Positions 5,850-29,660 of a stretch of DNA of 64,000 bases are shown here, piece by piece. The translations under genes and the position numbers were made by a program. Source of the DNA: Burkholderiaceae bacterium (GTDB lineage: Bacteria; Pseudomonadota; Gammaproteobacteria; Burkholderiales; Burkholderiaceae). The DNA is taken from the NCBI GenBank assembly GCA_947450605.1, contig CANFWB010000002.1, forward strand, positions 21,564 to 85,563, written 5' to 3'. Under the pieces are notes generated by a model. It did not search any database. It had not been told where the DNA came from and saw nothing but the letters and a program-made list of their open reading frames with translations. The stretch's first letter is position 1, and each line of letters begins with the position of its first letter.

Positions 5850-6127
5850 GTCTCAAGCTAGCTGATCTACAGGCCAGACAAAGGCTATTGCAAGAGCGTG
5901 CAGCACAAGAGCGTGCTGATTTTGCTCTGCATTTTCAGCCTCTTGAAAAGCCGCTATCTTGGGCCGATAAAGGCATTGACGCTTTTAATTTTGTGAAGAG
6001 CAGTCCGATCTTGTGGACTAGTGCATTCGCTGTGCTGGCCCACTACAAACCTAAATTAGCCAGTAAAGTGCTGGCAGTGGGTTGGGGCACTATGAAGATG
6101 CTCAAAAGTGCAAAGAATCTGCTGTAA
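5846..6127 (+). CDS. YqjK-like small protein
   Basis: Third gene of the DUF883/YqjE-like cluster, 4-nt overlap with the upstream stop. Confidence 0.55.
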   Translation: MSLKLADLQARQRLLQERAAQERADFALHFQPLEKPLSWADKGIDAFNFVKSSPILWTSAFAVLAHYKPKLASKVLAVGWGTMKMLKSAKNLL

Positions 6128-7251: not shown

Positions 7252-8925
7252 ATGCATATAAATCCTCGGAAACCATGGCTAAAGCACTATCTTGAGGGGG
7301 TGCCTCATGAGATAGACCTAGCCGGTCATTCATCCATCGTGGAGTTACTAGAAGCGTCTTTTGAGAAATACCCCAATTGCATTGCGATCGAGTCCATGGG
7401 GCATTCAATGAGCTATCGTCAGCTCGACGTTCTCTCGCGGGACTTTGCGGCCTATCTTCAAACTTTAGGGCTTGAAGCTGGAGCGCGCATAGCCATCATG
7501 TTTCCCAATATTCCGCAATATGTCATTGCAATGCTAGGCACGCTTCGTGCTGGCTTCACAGTAGTTAATATTAATCCGCTATATACGGCCCGTGAGTTAG
7601 AACATCAATTACGCGATAGCGGTGCATCTGTATTGGCTTTATTGGAAAACTTTGCTCATGTATATCAAGAGATCGAAAATCAAGCGCTTGTAAAAAAGGT
7701 GATTGTCAGTAGTTTGGGTGAGGCTTTGGGCCCCAAGGGCGTCATCGTCAACCTAGTTGCCCGTCACATTAAAAAACTCGTACCGCAGTGGAAGTTCTCA
7801 TGCGTTAAATTTAATCAGGCTCTCAAAATTGGCTCAGGTCATGGCTTTAGTAGGCCACATATAGACTTAGAAGATGTTGCCTTTTTGCAGTATACGGGCG
7901 GCACTACAGGCGTCTCGAAAGGTGCTGTTCTATTGCACCGGAATATATTGGCCAATATCATTCAAATAGAGTCTTGGCTGGAGCCCGCCCTACAACATCG
8001 CTGTTTAAAGCAACTCGTTTTTCTATGTGCTTTACCAATGACGCATATATTTGCGTTAACAGCATGCGCATTGCTCGGGATGCGTAAAGGCGCCAAGTTA
8101 ATTCTGGTTGCCAATCCACGCGATATTACTAGTTTGATACAGTTATTAATGCGACATCCTGATATCAATATCTTTCCCGGTGTGAATACTTTATTTCATG
8201 CGCTCATACACAGGCCTGAATTCAAGGCGGTCAAACTACCCAATCTTTTGGTCACTATTGGTGGGGGCATGGCAGTTCAAAAGAAGACTGCCGATCTCTG
8301 GCATAAGCTAACAGGCGTGCCGATTGCCCAGGGTTACGGTCTTTCAGAGACTTCGCCAGTGGTTTGCGTTAACACCCCATTTATAAAAGAATTCACGGGC
8401 TCTATTGGTATGCCAGTATCTAGCACTGATGTAGTGATATTGGATGATGATGGCTCTGAAGTTCCATTTGGTACGCCTGGAGAAATTTGCATTAAGGGCC
8501 CACAGGTCATGAGGGGCTATTGGGGTAGATCAGGGGAGGCTGGGCAATTTATCACTCCAGATGGGTATTTAAAGTCTGGCGATATTGGCATCATGAGCTC
8601 TGAAGGCTACGTGCAAATTGTGGACCGCAAGAAAGACATGATTGTGGTTGCTGGCTTTAAGGTATTTCCCAATGAGGTTGAGGAGGTGATCTCATCAATA
8701 GCCGGGGTGAGAGAGTGCGCCGTGATTGGACTGCCGCACCGTAAGTTGGGGGAGATCGTGAAAGCCTATATTGTCAAAGACAAAACTGACTTAACAGAAG
8801 GGCAGGTCATTCAGTTTTGCAAAGAACAGTTGACTAGTTACAAGCGCCCTAGAAAAATTGTCTTTATCGATGAAATGCCGAAATCAAATGTTGGCAAAAT
8901 TCTGCGCCGCCATTTGCGCGATTAA
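7252..8925 (+). CDS. Long-chain fatty acid-CoA ligase (FadD-like)
   Basis: AMP-binding motif YTGGTTGVSKGA, GYGLSETSPV, C-terminal PKSNVGKILRR. Confidence 0.93.
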   Translation: MHINPRKPWLKHYLEGVPHEIDLAGHSSIVELLEASFEKYPNCIAIESMGHSMSYRQLDVLSRDFAAYLQTLGLEAGARIAIMFPNIPQYVIAMLGTLRAGFTVVNINPLYTARELEHQLRDSGASVLALLENFAHVYQEIENQALVKKVIVSSLGEALGPKGVIVNLVARHIKKLVPQWKFSCVKFNQALKIGSGHGFSRPHIDLEDVAFLQYTGGTTGVSKGAVLLHRNILANIIQIESWLEPALQHRCLKQLVFLCALPMTHIFALTACALLGMRKGAKLILVANPRDITSLIQLLMRHPDINIFPGVNTLFHALIHRPEFKAVKLPNLLVTIGGGMAVQKKTADLWHKLTGVPIAQGYGLSETSPVVCVNTPFIKEFTGSIGMPVSSTDVVILDDDGSEVPFGTPGEICIKGPQVMRGYWGRSGEAGQFITPDGYLKSGDIGIMSSEGYVQIVDRKKDMIVVAGFKVFPNEVEEVISSIAGVRECAVIGLPHRKLGEIVKAYIVKDKTDLTEGQVIQFCKEQLTSYKRPRKIVFIDEMPKSNVGKILRRHLRD

Positions 8926-8932
8926 TAAATAA

Positions 8933-9880
8933 CTATAGACCGCCGCCAAAGCGATATTGCCAAGAAATGCCATAGAGGTCGTAGCTATTATTGGTTCGTG
9001 AATAAGCGCCGGTACTCGCTGAAAGTCTAATAGAGTTATTTTTATTTACGGGGTATGACATCGTGCTGCCAAAGCGCCAGTTTTCTTGATTTCCGCTAAT
9101 GGGGTTGCCGTTTAAGTAAGACTGCCCACCCGTGAAATACGTGGCATCCACCGAGATCCATGCCGTATTCTGAAAATAATAAATTGCATGAGTTTGGGTT
9201 GAGTAAACCGGGTTTTGAGATAAGGAGTTGCCACCCATGAAGTTGGTGTTGCTGGTATAAAAAATACCCGAACCAGCCAATTCAAATCTCCAGGGGCCAA
9301 GAGCCTTGGATATCCCAAGCCCTGGTTGTATAAACCAACGGTTTGCGCCTACATTGATTAATTGATTGTCATCATATTTCCCCCAAGGTACCGATGCAGC
9401 AAGGCTCGCTCCAATGATGAGATCTTGTTGGTAGTCCTTAAATTGATCTAGAGTTAATGCAGGAGCACCGTAAAGATTGACTGAGGCTTTAATTAGGGGG
9501 TCAGACAATCCCTCGGTGCTGGCATTGACTGTCCGTCCGCCAACAGTGCTTGATCCAGTTAATTGTCCGTAGGGGAGAACAAGTGTCAGTTTTCCAGATT
9601 GGCCGCCCACGTCAAAGATATGAGTCAGGCTCATGACTTCGCTGGTGAGGGTGTAATTTCCACTCTTGGCCTGGACAACACCTGCGCTAAGGAAGTTAAC
9701 GCCAATGGGCGCATTGGAATAGGCGCGCGCCTCAATTTCTTGTGCGTACGATAGCGTCGGAAATGCAGTGCCCGATCCAAGCAATATCCCAAAGGCTATT
9801 GCAATAGCCCTATGTAAAAAACGTGCGGATAGCCTTGGGCGCCCCAAAACTTTACTTGCTGGATGGAGGTTTATTGCCAA
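8933..9880 (-). CDS. Outer-membrane beta-barrel, MetA-pathway-of-phenol-degradation-like transporter
   Basis: Signal peptide, repeating beta-strand composition, C-terminal YGISWQYRFGGGL. Confidence 0.75.
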   Translation of the reverse strand: MAINLHPASKVLGRPRLSARFLHRAIAIAFGILLGSGTAFPTLSYAQEIEARAYSNAPIGVNFLSAGVVQAKSGNYTLTSEVMSLTHIFDVGGQSGKLTLVLPYGQLTGSSTVGGRTVNASTEGLSDPLIKASVNLYGAPALTLDQFKDYQQDLIIGASLAASVPWGKYDDNQLINVGANRWFIQPGLGISKALGPWRFELAGSGIFYTSNTNFMGGNSLSQNPVYSTQTHAIYYFQNTAWISVDATYFTGGQSYLNGNPISGNQENWRFGSTMSYPVNKNNSIRLSASTGAYSRTNNSYDLYGISWQYRFGGGL

Positions 9881-10382
9881 ATAGAATCTCTAGTGTGGCT
9901 GTGCTGCCAATCGCCAATCTAAATCCAACTAGCAATAAATAGGGCCAGACAATTAACCAGTAGACGATCGACATGGCCACTACATGTAGTGGATTCGATC
10001 TACCAAAGTCGGCCATGGAAGAGATGAAGTCCTTGCCATGAATTAAGCCATGAATACCAGCCTCGAAGTAATTTAGCCCCAGAACAATCACTAGGTAAAT
10101 CAGAGATTCAAGTATGAGGGAATTAACAATCCCATTATTTTTATTAACCTTAATAGGCAAGATGGCTTGCCCGATCATCATAAATTTAGAGCATAGAGCG
10201 GCCTTGATTAAGGCAAAGCCAAAGATGGATAAAGGAATGGGTCTTTCATCTAAGGAGGTGGCGCCCAGAAACGCTAATGCGCAAAACCAAATCCCAAAAT
10301 ACATAGAGAGTTGTAATGCCTTGGCGATCTCTTCTTTAGCTTTTGTTTTGAAGGTATTGGGCTTGATATTGGTGGTGTTCAT
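9852..10382 (-). CDS. Small integral membrane protein, unknown
   Basis: About four hydrophobic segments; overlaps the downstream gene by 29 nt. Confidence 0.7.
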   Translation of the reverse strand: MNTTNIKPNTFKTKAKEEIAKALQLSMYFGIWFCALAFLGATSLDERPIPLSIFGFALIKAALCSKFMMIGQAILPIKVNKNNGIVNSLILESLIYLVIVLGLNYFEAGIHGLIHGKDFISSMADFGRSNPLHVVAMSIVYWLIVWPYLLLVGFRLAIGSTATLEILFGNKPPSSK

Positions 10383-10390
10383 TCTTTGGC

Positions 10391-11299
10391 TTACTGGGCA
10401 ATAAGACTGGCTTCCCAGGCTTGAATTTCTGACAGACCAAGTATTTCACTGTACTGAGCGGGGCTCAACAGATGATTAGTGTAGTCGCCGAGCTTTTCAT
10501 TTGACTGCAGATGCTTTAATGCCAACTGCATTGCATGGCCAAATATACCTCGAGCAAGAGTTGGGTGAATTGCGATATCGATCCCATGAGACTTGAGATC
10601 GGAGGCCTTTAATTGCGAAATGGGTCCTCCTACATCAACATTAAACAGGCATGGCGCTTTGACTTCTTGCTTCACTTTTTGAATCATGGCTAGGGCATCT
10701 GGATTTGCCTTTAGCTCCACAAAGACTGCATCTGCGCCAGCAGCAACAAATGCCTTTGCTCTTGTAATAGCTTCATCGAGCCCAAGGGAGCTCGCACTGT
10801 CAGTGCGAGCAATTAATACCATCTCATGGTCAGCCCTGGCGGCAACAGCTGCTTTTATATGGCTTACAGCTTCTGCGAAGTTTAGAACTGATCTAGCCCC
10901 AGAAAATTGAGCACACTGTTTTGGGAAGGTTTGATCTTCAATGTGGATTGCGGCTACTCCAGCGGCTTCAAACTCGGTAATAGTGCGCTTAATATTCAAT
11001 ACACCGCCATATCCCGTATCTGCATCACAGATGAGTGGGATGTTGATGCATGCTGCAATCCGCCTTGCATGATCGGACATCAATGTTAAATCTACTTGAC
11101 CAATATCCGGTGTTCCGAGCAATGATGCTGAAACGCCATTGCCAGTCATATAGGCAGCCTCAAAACCTGCATTTTGGACCATTCTTGCGCCGTAGCCATC
11201 GTAAATTCCAGGGGCAATTAGTGCCTTATCTTGCTGGAGTAGTTTGCGAAGTTGCTGTCGTTTTAGTGTTGCCGTAAGTATTGCCATTAAAACTTCCAA
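10391..11299 (-). CDS. Isocitrate lyase/PEP mutase superfamily lyase (methylisocitrate/dimethylmalate lyase-like)
   Basis: ICDADTGYG metal site, IHIEDQTFPKQC loop with conserved Cys, IARTDS. Confidence 0.88.
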   Translation of the reverse strand: MEVLMAILTATLKRQQLRKLLQQDKALIAPGIYDGYGARMVQNAGFEAAYMTGNGVSASLLGTPDIGQVDLTLMSDHARRIAACINIPLICDADTGYGGVLNIKRTITEFEAAGVAAIHIEDQTFPKQCAQFSGARSVLNFAEAVSHIKAAVAARADHEMVLIARTDSASSLGLDEAITRAKAFVAAGADAVFVELKANPDALAMIQKVKQEVKAPCLFNVDVGGPISQLKASDLKSHGIDIAIHPTLARGIFGHAMQLALKHLQSNEKLGDYTNHLLSPAQYSEILGLSEIQAWEASLIAQ

Positions 11300-11802
11300 T
11301 CGGGATGTTCTTTTAAGAAGGGGATGAGACCGCCAAATTCTATGAGTCGAATCATTTCTTGAGGTAGTGGCGGCGCCTCTAATGTTGAATGATTGCTACG
11401 GGTAATTTTGCCCATTGAAAAATCAACAGTCAGTATTTCACCGTCAATCAGGGTGGAGGTATCGCACTCCAGCACTGGCATACCATTATTAATTGCATTT
11501 CTAAAAAACTGGCGTCCAAAAGACTTGGCGATAATGCCGCGAATATTCATGATTTGCATGATGTGAACAGCTTGCTCGCGTGAGGAGTTAATGCCAAAAC
11601 TATCTCCAGCAATCAATATGCCTCCATTTGCAGCGGCAATTTTTGATGCAAATCCTAAAGTTAGCCCATCAAATGCAAGCTTTGCTATTGCCTCAGCCGA
11701 TTGGTTGGGTAAGTATTTTCCAGAGCAATGCAAGTCTGTATTAACGTGGTCACCCAATACGAAGGCTTGACCTTGGACACAAGAAAGATTCATTTTGCTC
11801 AT
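11287..11802 (-). CDS. Aconitase-family small subunit (LeuD/DmdB-like)
   Basis: GDHVNTD..., GDSFGINSSREQAV swivel-domain motif. Confidence 0.88.
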   Translation of the reverse strand: MSKMNLSCVQGQAFVLGDHVNTDLHCSGKYLPNQSAEAIAKLAFDGLTLGFASKIAAANGGILIAGDSFGINSSREQAVHIMQIMNIRGIIAKSFGRQFFRNAINNGMPVLECDTSTLIDGEILTVDFSMGKITRSNHSTLEAPPLPQEMIRLIEFGGLIPFLKEHPDWKF

Positions 11803-13082
11803 GAATTTAATCTCCAGTCTCCACCAATGACTGTGCGAGGGTCAGTAATAAAGCCGGTTAGTGCTGAGGCTGCAACTGTAGCCGCTGAGCCGAGCCAGAT
11901 ATCTGAATCTGGATTAGATAATCTCCCTTTGAAATTTCGGTTGGCCGTGGAGATGATGGTATCTCCATCTCCGGGTACAAGGTGATTGGTAATGCCAACG
12001 CAAGTGCCACAGCCCGCGGATTCAAATGATGCGCCGGCCAAGGTCAGGATTTCAATGAGACCCTCACGTAATGCAGCAAGATAAATTTTTCTTGAGGCAG
12101 GCGTCACAATCATTCTGACTCCTGCGGCCAGTTTTTGACCTTTCAGTATTGCTGCAGCCTGCCTAATATCATCTAGGCGCCCATTAGTGCATGTACCAAT
12201 CAGAGCAAATTGAATGGGCTGCTTAATCACCTCATGGGCCGCAACAATATCATCCACCTGATGCTTTCTGGCGACTTGGGGCGCCAGAGTATTGGTATCA
12301 ATTTCGATGCATTGTGCATAAATAGCATTGGCATCTGAGAATACGGGTTTGGGTGTCTGGGCTCCATGCGCATTTAACCATTCGATTGTTTTTTCATCGG
12401 CCTCAAGAATGGCTGCTTTGGCGCCCAATTCGGCTGCGTGATTGCATAGCGTCATGCGATCATCAATATTCATGGCCGATACACCTTGACCAACATATTC
12501 AATCGCTTTGTAATTTAGACCTTCTGCACCGAATTGACCCAGCATAAACAGGGTAAGATCCTTAGCCCAGACGCCGGGTTGAAGCTGACCCGTGAGGCTT
12601 ACTTGAACGGTTTCGGGAACACGAAACCACAGCTTACCTGTTGTCATTACTGCGGAGACATCAGTACCTTCAATGCCTGTACCAAAAGCATTAAATGCAC
12701 CGTAGGTTGTTGAGTGTGTGTCGGTGCCGACAATTAAGTTACCTGCAGTCAAGTGTCCGCCTTCAGGTAACACTTGATGGCAAATACCATCGCCAATGTC
12801 ATACAGTTGCGTACCTTCTTGCTTGGCAAAGGAGCGCATCTCCGTATGAATTTGTGCGGCCTCCAGATTGGGTGGCGGGGAGTAGTGATCCAGAACCAAG
12901 GCAGTTTTATTGGCAAACGCAAGTTGCTTGTTGCCAATGCGATTAATCATCTTGATGGTGTTGCTCGCTCTAGTATCGGTAACCATTGCGTAGTCCACAT
13001 CACATACCACCACATCACCAGCTTTTACCGACTCACGTTGTGCGTGAGCAGCCAGGATTTTTTCACTAATTGTTGATCCCAT
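11799..13082 (-). CDS. Aconitase-family large subunit (LeuC/DmdA-like)
   Basis: GTDTHSTTYGAFNAFGTGIEGTDV, GTCTNGRLDD, GCGTCVG [4Fe-4S] cysteines, SNPDS. Confidence 0.9.
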   Translation of the reverse strand: MGSTISEKILAAHAQRESVKAGDVVVCDVDYAMVTDTRASNTIKMINRIGNKQLAFANKTALVLDHYSPPPNLEAAQIHTEMRSFAKQEGTQLYDIGDGICHQVLPEGGHLTAGNLIVGTDTHSTTYGAFNAFGTGIEGTDVSAVMTTGKLWFRVPETVQVSLTGQLQPGVWAKDLTLFMLGQFGAEGLNYKAIEYVGQGVSAMNIDDRMTLCNHAAELGAKAAILEADEKTIEWLNAHGAQTPKPVFSDANAIYAQCIEIDTNTLAPQVARKHQVDDIVAAHEVIKQPIQFALIGTCTNGRLDDIRQAAAILKGQKLAAGVRMIVTPASRKIYLAALREGLIEILTLAGASFESAGCGTCVGITNHLVPGDGDTIISTANRNFKGRLSNPDSDIWLGSAATVAASALTGFITDPRTVIGGDWRLNS

Positions 13083-13084
13083 GA

Positions 13085-14089
13085 TTATTGGGTCGCAAGG
13101 TTAATACTTTTAATAATCTTGCCCCAGAGTCCGTACTCTGACTTCACAGTGTTTGCGAGCTCTTGTGGTGTCGATGGTGCGGGCTCAAGGTCAACCCTTC
13201 TTAATCGCTCGGCTGTTTCTGGGTCCTTCAGGGTGGCTACCACTGCAGCATTAATTTTGGCGACAAGTTCTGGGTTCATTTTGGGTGGGGCAATAAAGGC
13301 ATACCAATTTAGCGCTTGGTATCCCGGGTAACCTTGTTCTGCAATTGTGGGGACGTTGGGTAGCCCAGGAAGACGCTTCAGACTAGTTACTGCCAGCGGT
13401 CGAACTTTTCCACCTTCAATTAAAGGGACTGCAGTAGGCGTGCTCGCAAAGATGGCTGTAATGTTGCCGCCAAGGAGATCGGTCATTGCCGGCCCACCAC
13501 CTTTGTAGTTGATATGTTCGCCTTTCATGCCTGAACGAGCCTTCAGTAACTCACCTGCTAAATGCCCAGTACTGCCATTTCCTGAAGAGCCAAACGTAAC
13601 AAAACCATCTTTTGTCTTTCCGGCAGCAACAAAGTCGGCCAGATTCTTAATTGGAGAATCGGCTTTAACAACCAAAATATTGGAGAAGGTTACCCCTTGG
13701 GAGATGAGGCTAAAGTCCGTCAATGGGTTGAATGAGGTGCCATTTGGCATATGAGGATTAATTGCCATTGATCCTACCGTGGTCAGCATCAATGTATAGC
13801 CGTCTGGCTCAGCCTTGAGCAGTTGCTCGCTAGCTAAGTTGCCACCAGCCCCAGGTCTGTTATCAATCACAATCGGTTGACCAATTTTCTCACCCAGCTT
13901 GGGCCCCATAATTCTTGCTGCACTGTCTGCTCCACCACCGGGGGCAAATCCCACAATGAGGCGGATGGGCTTATTTGGGTAGCTTGCCACCTGGGAGAGC
14001 CCAATACTCGGGGCTAACAGCAGGGTCGCGAAAAGCGGACTAACTAGCTGAAGAATCTGGCGACGCAGGATTAAGGTGTTTTGTCTCAT
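13085..14089 (-). CDS. Bug/TctC-family tripartite tricarboxylate receptor
   Basis: YPNKPIRLIVGFAPGGGADSAAR, NRPGAGGNLASE, PDGYTL motifs. Confidence 0.95.
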   Translation of the reverse strand: MRQNTLILRRQILQLVSPLFATLLLAPSIGLSQVASYPNKPIRLIVGFAPGGGADSAARIMGPKLGEKIGQPIVIDNRPGAGGNLASEQLLKAEPDGYTLMLTTVGSMAINPHMPNGTSFNPLTDFSLISQGVTFSNILVVKADSPIKNLADFVAAGKTKDGFVTFGSSGNGSTGHLAGELLKARSGMKGEHINYKGGGPAMTDLLGGNITAIFASTPTAVPLIEGGKVRPLAVTSLKRLPGLPNVPTIAEQGYPGYQALNWYAFIAPPKMNPELVAKINAAVVATLKDPETAERLRRVDLEPAPSTPQELANTVKSEYGLWGKIIKSINLATQ

Positions 14090-14220
14090 ATGATTTTTAA
14101 TGATTTTATTCTTACAATCTTAACTGAAATGAACGGGCTGCGGGGTGGTTAAGGCTTTGAAGATCATGCTATAAATAATCCATAATGGCTTGATATTAAT
14201 AATAAAAGTTGGAGATACGG

Positions 14221-15198
14221 ATGTCTATCAATAAGGCTAGGGCACTTGCTGCGGCAGTTTCCCTCTTGTGTGCATCATTTAGCATAAGTGTCAATGCTCA
14301 AAGTTGGCCTCAAAAACCGATTAAATTTATCGTTCCATTTGCAGCTGGAGGTGCCAACGATTTAATGGCTAGAGCTGCAGCTGAAGGTGCATCTAAGGTT
14401 TTAGGTCAGGCGATTGTGGTTGAAAATAAACCGGGTGCTGGCGGCTCGCTCGGCACAGTATTTGTGAGTAAAAGCGCTCCAGATGGCTATACATTTTTGA
14501 TCAGTGCGGCTGGGGTTGTGTCTAATAACATGATCAAAAAAACTACGAACTATAAGGACAGTGATTTGGTGCCTGTTGTCATGATTGGCTTGGCGCCCTC
14601 AGTCATTGTGGTGTCTTCCGAATCCAATTATAAAAATTTAAGAAATTTTGTAGATGCCTCAAAAGAGGGTGCCGGCCTGCATTTTGCAACTGCTGGAACC
14701 GGTAGCACTCCGCATTTTGTTGCAGAGCTATTAAATACGCGTTATGGGGCAAAACTGATTCCCGTGCCCTATAAGAGCGGCTCCGAAGGCGCGGCGGCAG
14801 TGATGGGGGGCCAAGTAGCCGGAACCTCTGAGGCCAGTATCGTTGCTTTGCCTCACATCAAGCAAGGTGGCAAATTTAAAGCCTTGGCAACTACTTGGAC
14901 AAAGCGAATTTCTGCTTATCCGGAACTGTCAACTGCAACTGAGCAAGGTTTTCCTGATCTACAAATTGCTCACTGGGCCGGCCTTCATGCGCCGGTAGGC
15001 GTCTCTCCTGAAATTATGGATCGACTAGCGGCTGCCGTTGATGTGGCCATGAAATCACCTCAAGTTGCTGATCGATTAAAAGGTCAAGGAATTGAGCCGA
15101 TAGGCGGTACGCGCGCCTCTTTTAATGAATTTGTGGATGCAGAGCGGGCACGCTTAGGTGCTATCGTTAAGGCTGCCCACATGAAGGATGATCAATGA
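14221..15198 (+). CDS. Bug/TctC-family receptor
   Basis: WPQKPIKFIVPFAAGGANDLMAR, NKPGAGGSLGT, PDGYTF; ATG at 14221 preferred. Confidence 0.95.
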   Translation: MSINKARALAAAVSLLCASFSISVNAQSWPQKPIKFIVPFAAGGANDLMARAAAEGASKVLGQAIVVENKPGAGGSLGTVFVSKSAPDGYTFLISAAGVVSNNMIKKTTNYKDSDLVPVVMIGLAPSVIVVSSESNYKNLRNFVDASKEGAGLHFATAGTGSTPHFVAELLNTRYGAKLIPVPYKSGSEGAAAVMGGQVAGTSEASIVALPHIKQGGKFKALATTWTKRISAYPELSTATEQGFPDLQIAHWAGLHAPVGVSPEIMDRLAAAVDVAMKSPQVADRLKGQGIEPIGGTRASFNEFVDAERARLGAIVKAAHMKDDQ

Positions 15199-16070
15199 AA
15201 TTAGATGAGGGTCTGGGCTTAATACTGCGTCAAAAGATTGAGGCTAAATCTGGGCTACTGGTTGCTGGGGCAGCAAATGCTTTAGCTGCACGCATCATTT
15301 ATCAGCTTGGGTTTGAGGCCGTTTATCTTAGCGGGGCTGGACTGACTAATACCTTCTACGGCATCCCTGACTTGGGCTTCGTGGGTCTTAGTGATCTAGT
15401 TCAACATACTTCTGCCATGCGTGATGCAATGCCATTGCCGATTATTGTTGATGCTGATACTGGCTTTGGAAATGCTTTAAATGTTCGACATACCGTGCGC
15501 TCCCTTGAGCGGGCTGGTGCCAATGCCATACAACTTGAAGATCAAGTGATGCCAAAGAAATGCGGACATTTTTCTGATAAATCCGTAGTGGATTCTGGCG
15601 AGATGGTGAGTAAGATTCGGGCGGCAGTGGATGCAAGAGATAGCGGCAATTTTTTAATCATTGCTCGGACAGATTCTCGAGCAATCCATGGTCTCGATCA
15701 CGCTATTGATAGGGCCCGTTTATATGCAGAAAATGGCGCTGATATTACTTTTGTTGAGGCCCCTGAGAGCATTGATGAGCTCAGGCGTATTCCAACTGAA
15801 ATTTCTTGCCCACAAGTTGTGAATGTGGTCATTGGTGGCAAAACCCCGAGTCTTTCGCAAAAAGAGTTTGCTCACATGGGCTTTGGCTTGGTGCTGTATG
15901 CCAATGCCGCCTTACAAGGTGCAATGCGTGGGATGACAAATGCCTTATCGCACTTAAAAGAAAATGGAGAATTGAAAGAGGATCTGAGGTTGGTAGCCTC
16001 TTTCGAAGAGCGCCAGGAATTTGTACAAAAACCTTATTTTGATGAGCTTGAAAAGCGATACAAAAAATAA
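15195..16070 (+). CDS. Isocitrate lyase/PEP mutase superfamily lyase
   Basis: IVDADTGFGN, QLEDQVMPKKCGHF (canonical KKCGH), IARTDSRA; 4-nt overlap with the upstream Bug gene. Confidence 0.9.
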   Translation: MKLDEGLGLILRQKIEAKSGLLVAGAANALAARIIYQLGFEAVYLSGAGLTNTFYGIPDLGFVGLSDLVQHTSAMRDAMPLPIIVDADTGFGNALNVRHTVRSLERAGANAIQLEDQVMPKKCGHFSDKSVVDSGEMVSKIRAAVDARDSGNFLIIARTDSRAIHGLDHAIDRARLYAENGADITFVEAPESIDELRRIPTEISCPQVVNVVIGGKTPSLSQKEFAHMGFGLVLYANAALQGAMRGMTNALSHLKENGELKEDLRLVASFEERQEFVQKPYFDELEKRYKK

Positions 16071-16114
16071 CCCGTAAATTTGCCCTCTATCTTGGTACCT
16101 ATTTTGGAGTTCAC

Positions 16115-17182
16115 ATGATATTTTCTCTGCGTAATGTATTGCCTAATCGCATTCTAATATCTGCCTTTCTATTTCTTTTGGCAGGATTATGCAGCGCTGA
16201 AAACTATTCACCAAAGCATTCAGTATGGACTGCTAGGAACTTTCAATTCCATACTGGTGAAGTGCTCCCGGAGATGAAGATTGGCTACATCACCATCGGT
16301 GAGCCCTCAGGTATTCCGGTATTAATATTGCATGGCACGGCTGGTACCGCTAAAGGCATGCTCTCTAAAAATTTTGGCGATCAACTCTTTGGTCCTGGTC
16401 AGGTATTGGATTCTAGTAAATACTTTGTGATCATTCCGGATGCCATTGGTGTGGGTAATTCGAGCAAACCATCTGATGGCTTAAAAACGAAGTTTCCCCA
16501 CTACAACTACGATGACATGGTGGATGCGCAATATAGGCTCGTCTCGGAAGGTCTTGGGATAAAACACCTTCGTCTCGTGCTTGGCAACTCTATGGGGGGA
16601 ATGCAAACCTGGCTATGGGGTGTCAAATATCCTGACTTTATGGATTTACTGGTTCCGATGGCCGCATCCCCAGTAGCCATGTCAGGTCGCAATTGGATGA
16701 TGCGTCGTCTGATTATTGATTCTGTTCGTAATGATCCAGAATGGAAGGGTGGAAATTACACCAAGCAGCCAAAAAGCATTCAATTTGCCACGGTATATTT
16801 TAATGTGGGTATGAGTGGCGGAAATCAGGGCTTGTATAAGCTGGCACCAACGAGGGAGAGGGCTGACCAATTATTAAACCAGAGATTAAGTTCACCTTTT
16901 GTGGTGGATGCCAATGACAATCTCTATCAGTGGGAATCATCCGGCGATTATGATCCTTCACTACATTTGGAAAATATCAAAGCTAGAGTATTGGCGATTA
17001 ATTCCGCAGATGATGAGCGGAATCCTCCTGAGCTGGGGTTTATGGAGAAAGCGCTTCCTCGCATAAAAAATGCAAAACTCTTTTTGATACCAGCTTCACC
17101 TGAGACCATTGGGCATAGCACAACTGGTCAAGCGAAGTGGTGGGCTAATGAATTGGACAGCACACTGCAAAGTATGCAGTAG
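16115..17182 (+). CDS. Exported MetX-like alpha/beta hydrolase
   Basis: Signal peptide (ILISAFLFLLAGLCSAE), GNSMGG, NSADDERNP, IGHSTTG. Confidence 0.82.
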   Translation: MIFSLRNVLPNRILISAFLFLLAGLCSAENYSPKHSVWTARNFQFHTGEVLPEMKIGYITIGEPSGIPVLILHGTAGTAKGMLSKNFGDQLFGPGQVLDSSKYFVIIPDAIGVGNSSKPSDGLKTKFPHYNYDDMVDAQYRLVSEGLGIKHLRLVLGNSMGGMQTWLWGVKYPDFMDLLVPMAASPVAMSGRNWMMRRLIIDSVRNDPEWKGGNYTKQPKSIQFATVYFNVGMSGGNQGLYKLAPTRERADQLLNQRLSSPFVVDANDNLYQWESSGDYDPSLHLENIKARVLAINSADDERNPPELGFMEKALPRIKNAKLFLIPASPETIGHSTTGQAKWWANELDSTLQSMQ

Positions 17183-17203
17183 CTGCGTGTCCGTATTGAT
17201 TGT

Positions 17204-23736: not shown

Positions 23737-24741
23737 TTATTGAATTTGCAGGTTGGCTTTTTTTACGATCTCTTTGTACCTATCGAGGTCTTCTCGTATT
23801 CTTGAGGTAAATTTTTGCGGAGGCATGCCACCAATATCGGCACCTTTGTCGGCAAAATTTTTCTTTACCTCAGGCTGTTCAATAGTCGCAAGCACTTCTT
23901 TATAAAGCTTTTGAATAATTGCATCGGAAACTCCTTTTGGCGCAAATAAGCCAACCCAATTTGATGCGTTCACAATGGGAATACCATCATCTTGAGTGGA
24001 AGACCAAGACTTGTTATAGCTAGACCTAGCATTGGTGGTGAGGGAAATAACTTTGACATTTCCAGAGAGAATGTGTGGCGCTACTGCTGGAATAGCTACA
24101 ACTCCAAGGGGAACCTCACCGGAGGCAACAGCTGCAACTGCTGGGGCTCCACCTTTATATGGTACGTGCAAAATCTTTACGCCGCTTTCTAGGGCGATCC
24201 ACTCGCCAGCTAGATGGTTAATGCTGCCATTTCCAGGGGTGGAGAACGAAAGTGAGTCCGGATTTTTTTTAGCCGCTGCAATCATTTCCTTATAGGTATT
24301 GAATGGAACCTTGCTATTTGCCACCAAAAGCATCGGGGTGTCGCTAATCATGGTGATTGGTGAAAAATCCCTTTCGAGGGAATAGGGAATATTAGGGAAA
24401 ATAGCGGGATTTACAGCAAACTCTCCAGTGTGGGCCATTAGCAGTGTGTAGCCGTCAGGCGCACTGTTGGCAGCTGCAGTGACGGCGATAAAACCATTGC
24501 CGCCTGGTTTGTTGTCTATAACAAAATTCCAACCCAGTCTTTCAGTCATCTTTTGAGTCAGCAGTCTTGCTGTGACATCAACAACTCCCCCAGGAGCGAA
24601 TGGCACGATGATTCGAATTGGCCTATTGGGATATTCCTGGCAAAAAGCGGTATTCAGACTACCAAAAAAAATTGCTACAAAACACAAAATCTTAAGCGTG
24701 AAATGTTTCATGTTGATCCTATTAGAGTGATTGGTTGGCAA
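23737..24741 (-). CDS. Bug/TctC-family receptor
   Basis: YPNRPIRIIVPFAPGGVVDVTAR, PDGYTLL. Confidence 0.95.
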   Translation of the reverse strand: MPTNHSNRINMKHFTLKILCFVAIFFGSLNTAFCQEYPNRPIRIIVPFAPGGVVDVTARLLTQKMTERLGWNFVIDNKPGGNGFIAVTAAANSAPDGYTLLMAHTGEFAVNPAIFPNIPYSLERDFSPITMISDTPMLLVANSKVPFNTYKEMIAAAKKNPDSLSFSTPGNGSINHLAGEWIALESGVKILHVPYKGGAPAVAAVASGEVPLGVVAIPAVAPHILSGNVKVISLTTNARSSYNKSWSSTQDDGIPIVNASNWVGLFAPKGVSDAIIQKLYKEVLATIEQPEVKKNFADKGADIGGMPPQKFTSRIREDLDRYKEIVKKANLQIQ

Positions 24742-25216
24742 CTTTTCTTTTTTCGCTTGCTAAGAAAACGGCTTTAATGATTTCTGGATAGGCGCCACAA
24801 CGGCATAAATTTCCAGATAGATAGTGCCGTACTTGATCTTCGCTGGGATTTGGGTGTTTATCTAACAATTGACCAATCATTAAAATAAATCCAGGCGTAC
24901 AAAATCCACACTGAAAGGCGCCCGCCTCAATGAAGGCTTCCTGTATAGGGTCCAGAACCCCATCTTTTTCAAGGCCTTCTATCGTTCGCACTGTTTTGCC
25001 ATCCAACATGGCAGCAAACTCTAAACATCCAGAATAAGCAACATCATCTATCAATACTGTACAGGCACCACATAAGCCCTGACCACAGCTTTCTCTAGCG
25101 CCACGAAAATTGAGTTGATTGAGTAATTCAATAATATTTTGATTATTACCAACCTCGGCGCTAACCTTGGTTCCATTGAGAATAAAATGGATCGCTGTTT
25201 TAGTGGGGCCCATCAA
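24722..25216 (-). CDS. Molybdenum hydroxylase [2Fe-2S] subunit
   Basis: CGQGLCGACTVLID, CGFCTPGFIL, LSGNLCRCGAYPEI cluster ligands. Confidence 0.95.
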   Translation of the reverse strand: MMGPTKTAIHFILNGTKVSAEVGNNQNIIELLNQLNFRGARESCGQGLCGACTVLIDDVAYSGCLEFAAMLDGKTVRTIEGLEKDGVLDPIQEAFIEAGAFQCGFCTPGFILMIGQLLDKHPNPSEDQVRHYLSGNLCRCGAYPEIIKAVFLASEKRKVANQSL

Positions 25217-25217
25217 T

Positions 25218-27506
25218 TTATTCCTTGTTTGGTAGGTTTATTTGCTGTTGCAATCCAGAAAGAATTGCTTCGGCGGTAATTGGGAGTTCACAAATACGAA
25301 CCCCAATTGCATCATCAATGGCATTGGCAATTGCTGGCGAAACTCCAAAGGTGGCGCTTTCGCCAACTCCCTTTGCGCCATAGGGCGCATTTTTTTGATA
25401 AGCCTGAACGATCTCGTTTTCAAAAATCAGGGGGAGATCATTGGTTCCTGGAATTTTGTAATCCGCAAAAGAGGCATTTGTCACCTGACCATGATCTAAA
25501 TTCATTTTTTCAAACAAAGTAAATCCCAATTGCATGATTGCGGCACCAGAAAGCTGAGTCTCAACGACCTTTGGATTGATTGCATTACCGCAGTCAACAA
25601 CATTAATCATCTTTGCTATTTTAATTTCACCAGACTCTGTATTGACTTCGAGTTCAACACCTGTTGCGCCAATCATCCAAAACGGTGTTGCATTTGTCGT
25701 TGACCCATCAGTTTTATCTGGCGGTGTATAAGTTGGTATATAACTGCCAAAGCCCACTAGAGTGCCGGCTTGCATGCCGTATCGTTTTATAAAAACTGCT
25801 TTCATGTCGCCATCGTAATTTGGGCCCAAACCCGCTTCGTTAGCCAGTGCCTGCTGCTTGTTTTTCAAATCTAGGGCCGCTAAGTGAACTGCATGCCCCA
25901 TATGAAAGGTGGATCTCGAGCCTAGGGTGGCCATATCGTATGGCGTGATATCGGTATCTGGGGTGGTTACTTTAATTTCTACGGCGGATACGCCCAAGAC
26001 CTCGGCTGCAATTTGTGCCATTGCGGTATCTGAGCCTTGGCCCATATCTACGGTTCCCATGGAAAGTATGTAACTTCCATCAGCGCCAAGAGTAATGATG
26101 GCGGTAGATGTAGTTGGCGCTACAACCGCTTTAAAGCCGATGCCAATGCCACGACCTCGTTTTACTATCCCTTCGCTTTGCTCAAGGGGGGTATCCCAAT
26201 GCATTCTGCTTGCAAGACGTTCTAATACAAGCTCAATTTCAGCGCCTTGCATCAATGTCCCAGTTGCTTGAGGGCGACCTTCTTTTAAAATGTTCTTGCG
26301 TCGAATAGTTAGTGGATCTAATTTGAGTTGGCGCGCAATGATGTCGATATGGCTTTCATAGGCCCAAACTAATTGTGGGATGCCAAAACCCCGGAGCGCT
26401 CCAGAAGGAGGTCTATTGGTATATAGGGCATATGAATCAATCTTAACGTTATCAATATCATATGGCCCCGCAGCAGTAAAGCCAGATTTTTGCGTAACTC
26501 GAGGCCCTATATCCGCATAGGCGCCGCCATTCCACCATACATCGCATTGCCTTGCAATAATTTTTCCATCCTTAGTCACTCCACTCTTAATTTTGAATGT
26601 AGTGGGGTGTTTGGTGATGGTGTAAAACTGCTCCTCCATGCTGAGCGAAACTTTCACCGGTCTTTTTGACAGCATAGCAAGCGCTACTACCAGTGCCTCT
26701 AATTTGATATAGAGCTTTGCTCCAAATCCGCCGCCTAAATGAGGGACCTTAACTTGGATTTGGTTCTCTCGAAAACCTAATAGGCGTGCAATTTCTAATT
26801 TGACGAACGATGGACTTTGCGATGCTGTGTAAATTGTAATTTGGTCATCAGTTGCTTGCGCCATGGAGACCATCGGCTCCAAAGGCGTGTGCATCACTTG
26901 CTGTGTTCGGAAGGTGTTTTCAATGACAAAATCAGCCTTGCTAAAACCCTCCTCAACATCTCCTCGCTTGAGGTGATAGTCAAGGGCAATATTGGTATTC
27001 TTTTTGCCAATAAGGTGTTTCAAATCTGGGAATGTTCCAGAGGGCTTTAAAACATCGTGAACAATTGCTTCCGAGGTCATTGCTTCGATTTCGTCATAAA
27101 CCGCTGGCAATTCCTCATAATCGACCTCAATGAATTGAGTGGCATATTCAGCTATATGGGGATCCTCTGATAGCACTACAGCAACAGGCTCACCTACATA
27201 GCGCACCTTTTCATGAGCAAGTATTGGTTGATCTAGAAATGCGGGACCAAAGTAGGGTTCGGGAATAATTTTAATAATGTCATCGATCGTGAAGACGGAG
27301 TGAACACCGGGAATTTTCTTTGCTGCTTCTGTATTGATGGATTTAATTAATCCATGAGCTACGGTACTTCTGAAAATTTTTCCATGGAGCATGCCCGGTA
27401 AGGTCAAATGATGTGTATAGATGGCTTGACCCGTCACCTTGGCCTTTGATTCCTTTCGCGGCAGTGATTTTCCAACTTGATTTGTGGGGGCTAAATTATT
27501 TGGCAT
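25218..27506 (-). CDS. Molybdenum hydroxylase molybdopterin-binding large subunit (xanthine dehydrogenase family)
   Basis: GGGFGAKLYIK, PPSGALRGFGIPQ, GVGESATFG near the C-terminus (GAKGVGES); start MPNNLAP at 27506 preferred over 27551. Confidence 0.95.
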   Translation of the reverse strand: MPNNLAPTNQVGKSLPRKESKAKVTGQAIYTHHLTLPGMLHGKIFRSTVAHGLIKSINTEAAKKIPGVHSVFTIDDIIKIIPEPYFGPAFLDQPILAHEKVRYVGEPVAVVLSEDPHIAEYATQFIEVDYEELPAVYDEIEAMTSEAIVHDVLKPSGTFPDLKHLIGKKNTNIALDYHLKRGDVEEGFSKADFVIENTFRTQQVMHTPLEPMVSMAQATDDQITIYTASQSPSFVKLEIARLLGFRENQIQVKVPHLGGGFGAKLYIKLEALVVALAMLSKRPVKVSLSMEEQFYTITKHPTTFKIKSGVTKDGKIIARQCDVWWNGGAYADIGPRVTQKSGFTAAGPYDIDNVKIDSYALYTNRPPSGALRGFGIPQLVWAYESHIDIIARQLKLDPLTIRRKNILKEGRPQATGTLMQGAEIELVLERLASRMHWDTPLEQSEGIVKRGRGIGIGFKAVVAPTTSTAIITLGADGSYILSMGTVDMGQGSDTAMAQIAAEVLGVSAVEIKVTTPDTDITPYDMATLGSRSTFHMGHAVHLAALDLKNKQQALANEAGLGPNYDGDMKAVFIKRYGMQAGTLVGFGSYIPTYTPPDKTDGSTTNATPFWMIGATGVELEVNTESGEIKIAKMINVVDCGNAINPKVVETQLSGAAIMQLGFTLFEKMNLDHGQVTNASFADYKIPGTNDLPLIFENEIVQAYQKNAPYGAKGVGESATFGVSPAIANAIDDAIGVRICELPITAEAILSGLQQQINLPNKE

Positions 27507-28368
27507 GGTTGACACCGTTGTTATAGGCTTCAAGAAGGGCACGTTTGACATAAACCCTCGCTAATTGGCGTTTATAGTCAGCACTACCAAGATGATCTGA
27601 AGTGGGATCGATTTCAGCTGAGACTAGATCTGCAGCTGAGGTGAGCAATGCTGGTGTTAATTCTTTGGTGGACAATCTATTTTCAAGTTCAATCAATCTA
27701 ACGGGGGTATCAGAAATTGAGCCCATAAATATTCTAGACGTGTCAATGTGATCGTCTTTAATAGTGAGATTAACCGCCACGCCTAATGCCGGCCAATCAT
27801 CTGCCGATCTGGTAGTGCACTTAACGTAGGACGAATAAGGGCTGATATTGGCAGGAAGTGAAATTTCATATATCAGTTCATTGGCCTCAAGACAGGTTTC
27901 GTAGTAGCCCAAATATAAGTTATCCACCGGAATAGTGCGCTTGCCCTCTGGGCTGATGGTTTGCACGTTGGCAGATAGGCAGCACAAGATTGGTGGCAAG
28001 TCCATATGTGGATCGCCGTGGGATAAGGCACCGCCAATTGTTGCAGAGTTTCGAACCCGAACATTCGCTAATTTAATCATTGCGCGGCAAATTACAGGGG
28101 CGTGAGTAGCAAGCAATGCCGAGTTTTCCAAATCTGAGAGTTTGGTAAGTGCGCCGATTTTGAGTTCGCCATTGGGTGCAACTTTGATATACGCGCTGTC
28201 CTTGATGTTGCGCAGACTAACCACTTGGGTAGGTGTAAATATTTGACTTTTCATCATCTGCATTAATGCTGTGCCGCCTGCAATGGATTTAGAGTTTTCT
28301 GGGTCGAGGCTGAGCAATTCAATAGCTTCATCAAAACTAGTGGGCTTTAATAATTCAAATGGCAACAT
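27496..28368 (-). CDS. Molybdenum hydroxylase FAD-binding subunit
   Basis: SIAGGTALM, VRVRNSATIGGALSHGDPHMDLPP. Confidence 0.94.
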   Translation of the reverse strand: MLPFELLKPTSFDEAIELLSLDPENSKSIAGGTALMQMMKSQIFTPTQVVSLRNIKDSAYIKVAPNGELKIGALTKLSDLENSALLATHAPVICRAMIKLANVRVRNSATIGGALSHGDPHMDLPPILCCLSANVQTISPEGKRTIPVDNLYLGYYETCLEANELIYEISLPANISPYSSYVKCTTRSADDWPALGVAVNLTIKDDHIDTSRIFMGSISDTPVRLIELENRLSTKELTPALLTSAADLVSAEIDPTSDHLGSADYKRQLARVYVKRALLEAYNNGVNHAK

Positions 28369-28383
28369 ACAATCTACTCTTTC

Positions 28384-28827
28384 TTAATTAAGAAAAGCAT
28401 TTTTCAAATTATTGGCAAATTGATTTTCAAGTTCTTTTGCTTTTGATCTTAAAACGGGCTGACCAAGGCCGCCCAGTTTTCCAGTTAACACAATATCAAT
28501 AGAGTAATCAATCACCGTCTCACCATCTAATTCACTCAAATTTGCCGTTGAAACCGTAGTTAAGCGTCCCACCAGCCCAATAGGATTACCCTCGGTCTTA
28601 GCAGTAATTTTCTGCGGAGAATGTAATTCGGTTATTTCGACAGTAATGGCAAACTTCATCTTGATGTAGGCAATCTTTGTCTCTAAGATTGCGCTGTATT
28701 TATTTGGTCCGATCTCGGTTAGATTTGTGACTCCATCGATGCAGGATGCAAAAAAGACGGGGTTGCTGAGTTTTTCAAAGACCGCGGAGATGGATGCTGG
28801 TACTTGGATCTTCCCGATAATATTCAT
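28384..28827 (-). CDS. CoxG-like SRPBCC-family protein
   Basis: Pattern IPASISAVFEKLSNP...CIDGVTNLTEIGPNKY...GKLGGLGQPVLRSKAKELENQF, next to Mo-hydroxylase genes. Confidence 0.85.
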   Translation of the reverse strand: MNIIGKIQVPASISAVFEKLSNPVFFASCIDGVTNLTEIGPNKYSAILETKIAYIKMKFAITVEITELHSPQKITAKTEGNPIGLVGRLTTVSTANLSELDGETVIDYSIDIVLTGKLGGLGQPVLRSKAKELENQFANNLKNAFLN

Positions 28828-29660
28828 TGATACGCCTTTGCTATTAGCGCCTTAAGACTTGCATTAATCTCAGTTGGGCATTCTATTGGGGTTAAGTGTC
28901 TTGCTTTGGGGATAATTTCTAGAGAAGAGTTTTTGATGTTCTCATGCATATAGTGAGCCATTTCGACTGGGGTTGCATAATCTTCTTCACCTACAATAAT
29001 TGCCGTAGGTAAATTCAAATCTTGAAGTGAGCCCCTGACATCAAATGCCCCCAGCATAGTGCAGGTTTCCTGAAAACACTGGACATTATTCGCCAAGAAA
29101 GTTTCAACTAGTTGCGATACCTCCTCGGGGTGCTTGTCGATAAAGGATTCTGAAAACCATCGGGTTTTTTGGAAGTCTATTAATGCTGCAAGCCCTTCAT
29201 TAATAGCCTTAGCGGCTCTTTCTGCCCATTTCTGCGGCGCATCATTTCCATACCATGCGGTGGTATCTATCAAGCCCAAGCCTTTAGCCCGCTGTGGGTA
29301 GTTAATTGCAAATGCAAGTGATACTGAACCCCCCATGGATGCACCAACAATGACGGCATCATCCCATCCCAGATGGTTTAAAACATCCTCTAGGTCGCTT
29401 GCAAAAAGCTCAATACTGTATTTTGTGATTGATTTGCTTGAGTTGCCATGTCCACGACAGTCAACAGTTAGTACATTTGCGCATTCCACTAATGCAGGGA
29501 TATTTTTTCTCCAGAAAATACCATCCATGGCAAGACTGTGAATGAGTACCAGGCGTCTATTGGGCATTTCGCTTGAGTTATGCAGGGTAAATGAAATTGA
29601 CTCCCCATCCCTTGTCCTGACTGCCCCCTTAATGATTGATTTGCCGCTTATGTCTGACAT
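28824..29660 (-). CDS. Alpha/beta hydrolase (3-oxoadipate enol-lactonase-like)
   Basis: VLIHSLAMDGIFW, DCRGHGNS, VGASMGGSVSL, ARHLTPIECP; 4-nt overlap with CoxG-like gene. Confidence 0.88.
   Translation of the reverse strand: MSDISGKSIIKGAVRTRDGESISFTLHNSSEMPNRRLVLIHSLAMDGIFWRKNIPALVECANVLTVDCRGHGNSSKSITKYSIELFASDLEDVLNHLGWDDAVIVGASMGGSVSLAFAINYPQRAKGLGLIDTTAWYGNDAPQKWAERAAKAINEGLAALIDFQKTRWFSESFIDKHPEEVSQLVETFLANNVQCFQETCTMLGAFDVRGSLQDLNLPTAIIVGEEDYATPVEMAHYMHENIKNSSLEIIPKARHLTPIECPTEINASLKALIAKAYQ

Follow-up and report, generated by a model that had tools for sequence, protein, structure and literature searches.

The DNA examined here, hereafter the window, is a stretch of 64 000 nucleotides of contig CANFWB010000002.1 (assembly GCA_947450605.1), which corresponds to contig C2 of the genome designated G000. 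Between positions 8933 and 14089 it carries a run of six minus-strand open reading frames, which an earlier reading of the letters alone (the original prediction) had presented as one self-contained operon for the entry, capture, isomerization or dehydration, and cleavage of an external acid. All six frames and their domains were found as predicted. In the direction of transcription, they encode Bug1, a putative periplasmic solute-binding protein of the TctC/Bug family (13085–14089; PF03401, 1.9e-71); AcnL, the putative large subunit of an aconitase-superfamily hydro-lyase of the IPMI_arch/hacA type (11799–13082; PF00330 and NCBIfam models); AcnS, the corresponding small subunit, with an Aconitase_C domain of the LeuD/DmdB family (11287–11802; TIGR02087); Lyase1, a predicted C-C lyase of the isocitrate lyase/phosphoenolpyruvate mutase (ICL/PEPM) superfamily (10391–11299; PF13714, 8.5e-46); a helical membrane protein of 176 amino acids (9852–10382); and an outer-membrane channel protein of the Phenol_MetA_deg type (8933–9847; PF13557, 1.1e-13). 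G000 (1.95 Mb, 82% complete) is a freshwater Polynucleobacter metagenome-assembled genome, the genus being assigned from the 89–90% identity of AcnL to proteins in named Polynucleobacter records and from synteny.

The genes are tightly packed, with a 2 nt gap between Bug1 and AcnL (13085/13082), a 4 nt ATGA overlap between AcnL and AcnS (11802/11799) and an 8 nt gap between Lyase1 and the 176-aa gene (10391/10382). Two further overlaps in the original prediction depend on the choice of start codon. That at 11299/11287 hinges on an upstream TTG; Lyase1 probably starts at the ATG at 11287, which leaves a 1-base overlap with the AcnS stop codon (TAATG). Likewise, that at 9880/9852 hinges on a TTG at 9880, and the TTG at 9847, 4 nt past the stop of the 176-aa gene, better matches the orthologue starts at two related loci (L009 and L011). 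Promoter and terminator scans of the locus gave chance-level results, and no RNA families were found between positions 6000 and 20000.

Neighbourhood comparison established Bug1–AcnL–AcnS–Lyase1 (10391–14089) as a genuine conserved module that recurs in related bacteria, and for this four-gene core the expected conservation of gene order was confirmed. Two samples were used, 121 Polynucleobacter genomes and 399 genomes across the order, and the AcnL orthologue set was sharply bounded, its members being at least 63% identical and the next relatives at most 48%. Within the genus, AcnL and Lyase1 orthologues occurred in the identical 11 of the 121 genomes and lay side by side at 12/12 loci. In the order-wide sample, each was present in 20 genomes, 18 being common to both, and the four exceptions include G333, in which AcnL lies at a contig edge, as well as G330 and G473, which are ∼83–84% complete. 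Under independence, the chance of such co-occurrence is near 8e-16 for the genus and near 5e-27 for the order, the true figures being less extreme because the genomes are related and not fully independent. Furthermore, the pairwise distances of AcnL, AcnS and Lyase1 correlated at 0.86–0.90 over 27 loci. Lyase1 was not always the immediate neighbour: in f46 and f13 it is found a few genes further downstream, with an MR_MLE enzyme and a Bug gene (f46) or a molybdenum hydroxylase and Bug genes (f13) coming before it. The proposed pairing of a hydratase with a lyase is thus strongly conserved across genomes. No published description of the module was found in a literature search that had little reach into subscription journals.

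Conservation stops after Lyase1, and the view of the six genes as a single unit has to be given up. The 176-aa gene was detected in 98 of the 121 genus genomes, 93 of these being without AcnL, and 6 of the 11 AcnL-bearing genomes did not have it. It was followed by the channel gene at 14 inspected loci, all devoid of the AcnL module, where the usual order was U32 peptidase, 176-aa gene, channel gene and, on the opposite strand, fadD; in other genomes the module is found without both genes. We judged the pair to be long-standing neighbours within the genus and not parts of the module, and a pathway role for outer-membrane entry and for the membrane protein was not borne out by their genus-wide distribution. 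The locus shows that operon-like spacing can mislead, its two trailing genes being old neighbours. The 176-aa protein matched no Pfam or NCBIfam model, and its predicted structure was of low confidence (predicted local distance difference test, pLDDT, 62) and was not used. In Polynucleobacter sp. UK-Mo-2m-Kol15 (L010), the channel gene is split into two fragments (11466–12167 of that locus), and AcnL, AcnS and Lyase1 are intact.

In the six insert-less relatives that could be read cleanly (L155–L159 and L162), the genes for the U32 peptidase and the 176-aa protein lie 16–40 bp apart. The corresponding gap in the window extends over 6.8 kb (10383–17203) and contains seven genes, the four of the module on one strand and three on the other. 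This divergent half (14209–17182), missing from the original prediction, encodes on the plus strand Bug2, another TctC/Bug protein (14209–15198; PF03401, 1.3e-57); Lyase2, a second ICL/PEPM lyase with the standard KKCGH motif (15195–16070; PF13714, 3.6e-43); and, as the last gene of the insert, AB1, a secreted-type alpha/beta hydrolase that is MetX-like (NF005071; 16115–17182). The flanking-gene spacing in relatives places the module as inserted together with this divergent set upstream of the older membrane-gene pair. Lyase2 shares 37% identity with Lyase1 (232 aligned columns) and belongs to a separate clade. Bug2 is kept with Lyase2 at L009, L010 and L011 and, without AcnL, in G074 and G099, and AB1 accompanies the two in L009, G074 and G099. 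As the latter two genomes have the Bug2–Lyase2–AB1 half nearby without the AcnL half, the halves can exist apart. The GC content of the insert (46.5%) is no different from that of its flanks (45–46%), and composition therefore gives no evidence for a recent foreign origin.

Genes of a molybdenum-hydroxylase kind were also noted near such loci. Three genes near a Bug gene in the window (24722–29660; 164, 777 and 290 aa), at a distance of 8 kb from the insert, resemble a molybdenum-hydroxylase set in size and order only. In the f13 relatives the AcnL module itself includes a molybdenum hydroxylase, and in G052 (L080, 12128–14323) a protein of 731 aa whose start is Tat-like, by eye possibly a molybdenum enzyme of the isoquinoline-oxidoreductase type, is encoded divergently from the module.

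AcnL scored above the cut-offs of NF001614 (499 versus 385 bits), TIGR01343 (469 versus 386) and TIGR02086 (452 versus 410), and AcnS passed the LeuD/DmdB model TIGR02087 (124.2 bits versus a cut-off of 108.95). By these profiles the two proteins are assigned to the aconitase superfamily as a two-subunit hydro-lyase of the IPMI_arch/hacA/DmdA type. The cluster cysteines C298, C358 and C361 are present in 35/35 AcnL rows, the other residues checked are also kept, and Glu138 is clade-specific. AcnS retains the SSRE substrate-binding motif, as does its clade. The recognition loop of the clade reads (H/N)CSxKY followed mostly by LPGK or NMGK, with LPNQ, LPNH or LPNK in the closest relatives of the window, where the whole substrate-recognition region is HCSGKYLPNQ (11701–11730, minus strand). 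It thus differs from both the YLVY of the isopropylmalate isomerase (IPMI) and the YLRT of the homoaconitase of Methanocaldococcus jannaschii. This small-subunit loop determines substrate preference in the family (PMC7308503). The absence of the homoaconitase Arg from AcnS is a weak argument against a distal carboxylate on the substrate, and a soft one because most relatives, unlike the window, have a Lys after that position.

In the phylogenetic tree, AcnL was placed in a 100/100 clade of 35 rows, and Escherichia coli LeuC together with the two long LeuC proteins of G000 itself formed another 100/100 clade; the order of the outer groups was not used because deep branches were weak and several rows long. 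Three named identities were rejected for AcnL. The score with the biosynthetic LeuC model was 211.6 versus 560.25 (TIGR00170), the clades are separate and the genome possesses its own leuCDB; with the homoaconitase HacAB model it was 375 versus 550 (NF040615), and the loop reads KYLPN, not YLRT; and with AcnD, a single large chain, it was 77.6 bits versus a cut-off of 1419.85 (TIGR02333), which makes AcnD the wrong comparison in the original prediction. Relatives of AcnL are auto-annotated as 3-isopropylmalate dehydratase. A separate leuC-leuD-leuB run is located on contig C6, its LeuC and LeuD passing their models, and a third LeuCD-like pair (L117, 7993–13162; contig C1) is accompanied by genes for PdxA, an alpha/beta hydrolase and a Bug protein; the aconitase encoded on C43 is AcnB. 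The original prediction had itself named a grouping with LeuC, as the sole leuCD copy, as one outcome that would overturn it; AcnL did not cluster with LeuC and the pair was not the only one.

Lyase1 fell below the cut-off of every named NCBIfam relative, and its sequence points to a distinct clade of the ICL/PEPM superfamily. Its closest solved relatives are methylisocitrate lyase and 2,3-dimethylmalate lyase, and its own 27-row clade (100/99) excludes PrpB, Lyase2, the solved dimethylmalate lyase 3fa3 and the petal death protein 1zlp, the last two being long branches. The metal-binding and catalytic residues D65, D92, D94, E121, K127, C129 and R165 are kept. They include the Lys and the Cys, the latter being the catalytic acid of isocitrate lyase (PMC7609661), and the retention of the whole set argues for C-C lyase chemistry. 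The active-site motif reads K-Q-C-A-Q (residues 127–131; 10907–10921, minus strand) in place of KKCGH or KRCGH. Across the orthologues, K and C occur in 27/27, AQ in 18/27 including the window, and GH in 9/27, which form one sub-clade. CGH is found in every other ICL/PEPM row compared except one, so that AQ is most simply seen as a single derived change. Lyase1 was accordingly not identified with PrpB methylisocitrate lyase (TIGR02317, 221 versus 354.4 bits; KQCAQ, not KRCGH; separate clade), nor with 2,3-dimethylmalate lyase or petal death protein, for which KKCGH or KRCGH and a shared clade were the marks looked for: it has KQCAQ, and its clade leaves out 3fa3 and 1zlp. Its structure model was usable (pLDDT 83), and the fold search only repeated the superfamily membership.

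Bug1 has by eye a signal peptide-like N-terminus and falls within the TctC/Bug family, its solved relatives including terephthalate-binding proteins and BugD. Orthologues with 58–88% identity lie upstream of AcnL in most relatives. In G025 and G003 Bug1 is not directly upstream of AcnL, and in L010 it is reduced to a 99-aa remnant (7700–7999) beside intact enzymes; it is therefore helpful rather than essential, or replaceable. Of the periplasmic capture originally predicted, what remains is a receptor that is probably related yet replaceable. The closest Bug1 paralogue in the genome (51%, among ∼60) adjoins the other LeuCD-like pair on C1. In the 1.95 Mb of G000, the family of Bug1 has 61 matches and TctA 3, a large surplus of orphan receptors, and no TctA of a tripartite tricarboxylate transporter was found on contig C2.

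With family membership, catalytic residues, linkage and insertion as the observed basis, we infer two reactions and their order. We think it probable, by a modest degree, that the module couples an Fe-S hydratase to a C-C lyase acting on an external substituted malate- or maleate-type acid, and that it arrived together with its divergent half. Bug1 would capture the acid outside the inner membrane; AcnL and AcnS, as a [4Fe-4S] hydro-lyase, would hydrate a substituted maleate-type acid or isomerize a hydroxy acid to yield a 2-hydroxy dicarboxylate; and Lyase1 would cut this product between C2 and C3, releasing a carboxylate along with pyruvate or glyoxylate as the 2-oxo acid, without a coenzyme A (CoA) step. 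Alkyl-substituted maleates or malates, for example citraconate or dimethylmaleate, are tentatively ranked as the likeliest substrates, with tricarboxylates second. In favour of this reading also count the second, distant hydratase-lyase pairing in Burkholderiales described below, the missing homoaconitase Arg in AcnS and the position of the closest Bug1 paralogue beside the other LeuCD-like pair. Several observations speak against it. The neighbours of the module in other genera vary, comprising muconate-cycloisomerase-like and sugar-acid-dehydratase-like enzymes, PdxA, MmgE/PrpD, Ldh_2, tartrate/isocitrate-type dehydrogenases and a molybdenum hydroxylase, and the substrate may therefore differ between lineages or exceed an alkylmaleate in size. 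The AQ pair, standing where GH is otherwise found, may point to an altered reaction. Moreover, no lyase was present in the 20 kb read at one of the AcnL loci (L095), and another (L098) stops at a contig edge. Possible, though doubtful in our estimation, is a bolder notion: that the Polynucleobacter-type module handles a dissolved organic acid, for instance a humic photoproduct, by an undescribed route independent of CoA, and that its lyase, having changed from GH to AQ within its own lineage, cleaves a substrate new to ICL/PEPM enzymes.

The chemistry might instead be that of tricarboxylates, AcnL-AcnS and Lyase1 using an aconitate-, isocitrate- or methylisocitrate-like acid delivered by Bug1 in a scavenging version of the AcnD/PrpB or the aconitase/isocitrate lyase logic. 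Methylisocitrate lyases come closest to Lyase1 among both its solved and its predicted-fold matches, and MmgE/PrpD and isocitrate/tartrate-type dehydrogenases are among the neighbours in other genera; the PrpB score below and the AcnD score far below the respective cut-off, the clade apart from PrpB and the missing Arg at the homoaconitase loop position weigh on the other side, and we regard this version as unlikely. Still less likely is that AcnL-AcnS is a LeuCD-like isomerase feeding a dehydrogenase or decarboxylase of the LeuB or PdxA type encoded elsewhere, with Lyase1 cleaving a side product or another compound. Isocitrate/isopropylmalate-type dehydrogenases or PdxA do occur near the module in several other genera, and PdxA accompanies the second LeuCD-like pair of the genome, but the insert is without such a dehydrogenase and Lyase1 is nearly always linked.

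A single six-gene operon, in which outer-membrane entry and the membrane protein both belong to the working system, seems very improbable. Tight spacing on a single strand makes read-through transcription likely; the 176-aa gene and channel gene nevertheless occur mostly without the module and the module elsewhere without both, and at L010 the channel gene is broken next to intact enzymes. A duplicate of the biosynthetic leuCD genes that came to lie beside a lyase gene by chance would accord with the automatic annotation of the relatives, and is hardly credible given the leuCDB run on C6 with LeuC and LeuD above their cut-offs, the separation in the tree and the linkage statistics.

Polynucleobacter can form a large share of the plankton in freshwater and reportedly feeds mainly on small photooxidation products of humic matter (PMC3308952). 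A compact, patchily distributed module with a clear boundary, carried by the isolate P. sinensis MWH-HuW1 (L011), makes one route of acid use testable.

Among known systems, DmdAB (dimethylmaleate hydratase) and Dml (2,3-dimethylmalate lyase) function in the anaerobic nicotinate catabolism of Eubacterium barkeri. The module shares with them a two-subunit LeuCD-like hydratase, AcnS passing TIGR02087, that adjoins an ICL/PEPM lyase, and Lyase1 resembles 3fa3 (1.2e-42). In contrast to that system, the clade of Lyase1 is apart from 3fa3, its motif is KQCAQ and Bug receptors are present, and no other genes of the nicotinate pathway were identified within the insert. The likeness suggested by the original prediction is reasonable as logic, whereas the solved dimethylmalate lyase belongs to a separate clade. 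With AcnD/PrpB of the 2-methylcitrate pathway the module has in common the sequence of hydratase and C-C lyase and the PrpB-like fold of Lyase1; however, AcnD is one large protein whereas the module has two small subunits of another branch, and Lyase1 scores below the PrpB cut-off. As predicted, there was no separate PrpC, the one citrate synthase gene found in the 82% complete assembly adjoining leuC. The archaeal-type IPMI and homoaconitase of M. jannaschii (4kp1/4nqy, 2pkp, 3vba) are the best solved relatives and match in two-subunit layout and cluster cysteines, but the module differs from them in its loop, which is neither YLVY nor YLRT, in E138 and in its lyase partner. Finally, clusters of other Burkholderiales, for example on plasmid p1 of Burkholderia plantarii, also pair a two-subunit hydratase with an ICL/PEPM lyase, although their AcnL is ∼40% identical, their lyase is of another clade and an FAD oxidoreductase and a porin take the place of Bug. 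This second, distant pairing of LeuCD-like and ICL/PEPM proteins in Burkholderiales suggests that hydratase-lyase modules are a wider, poorly described theme.

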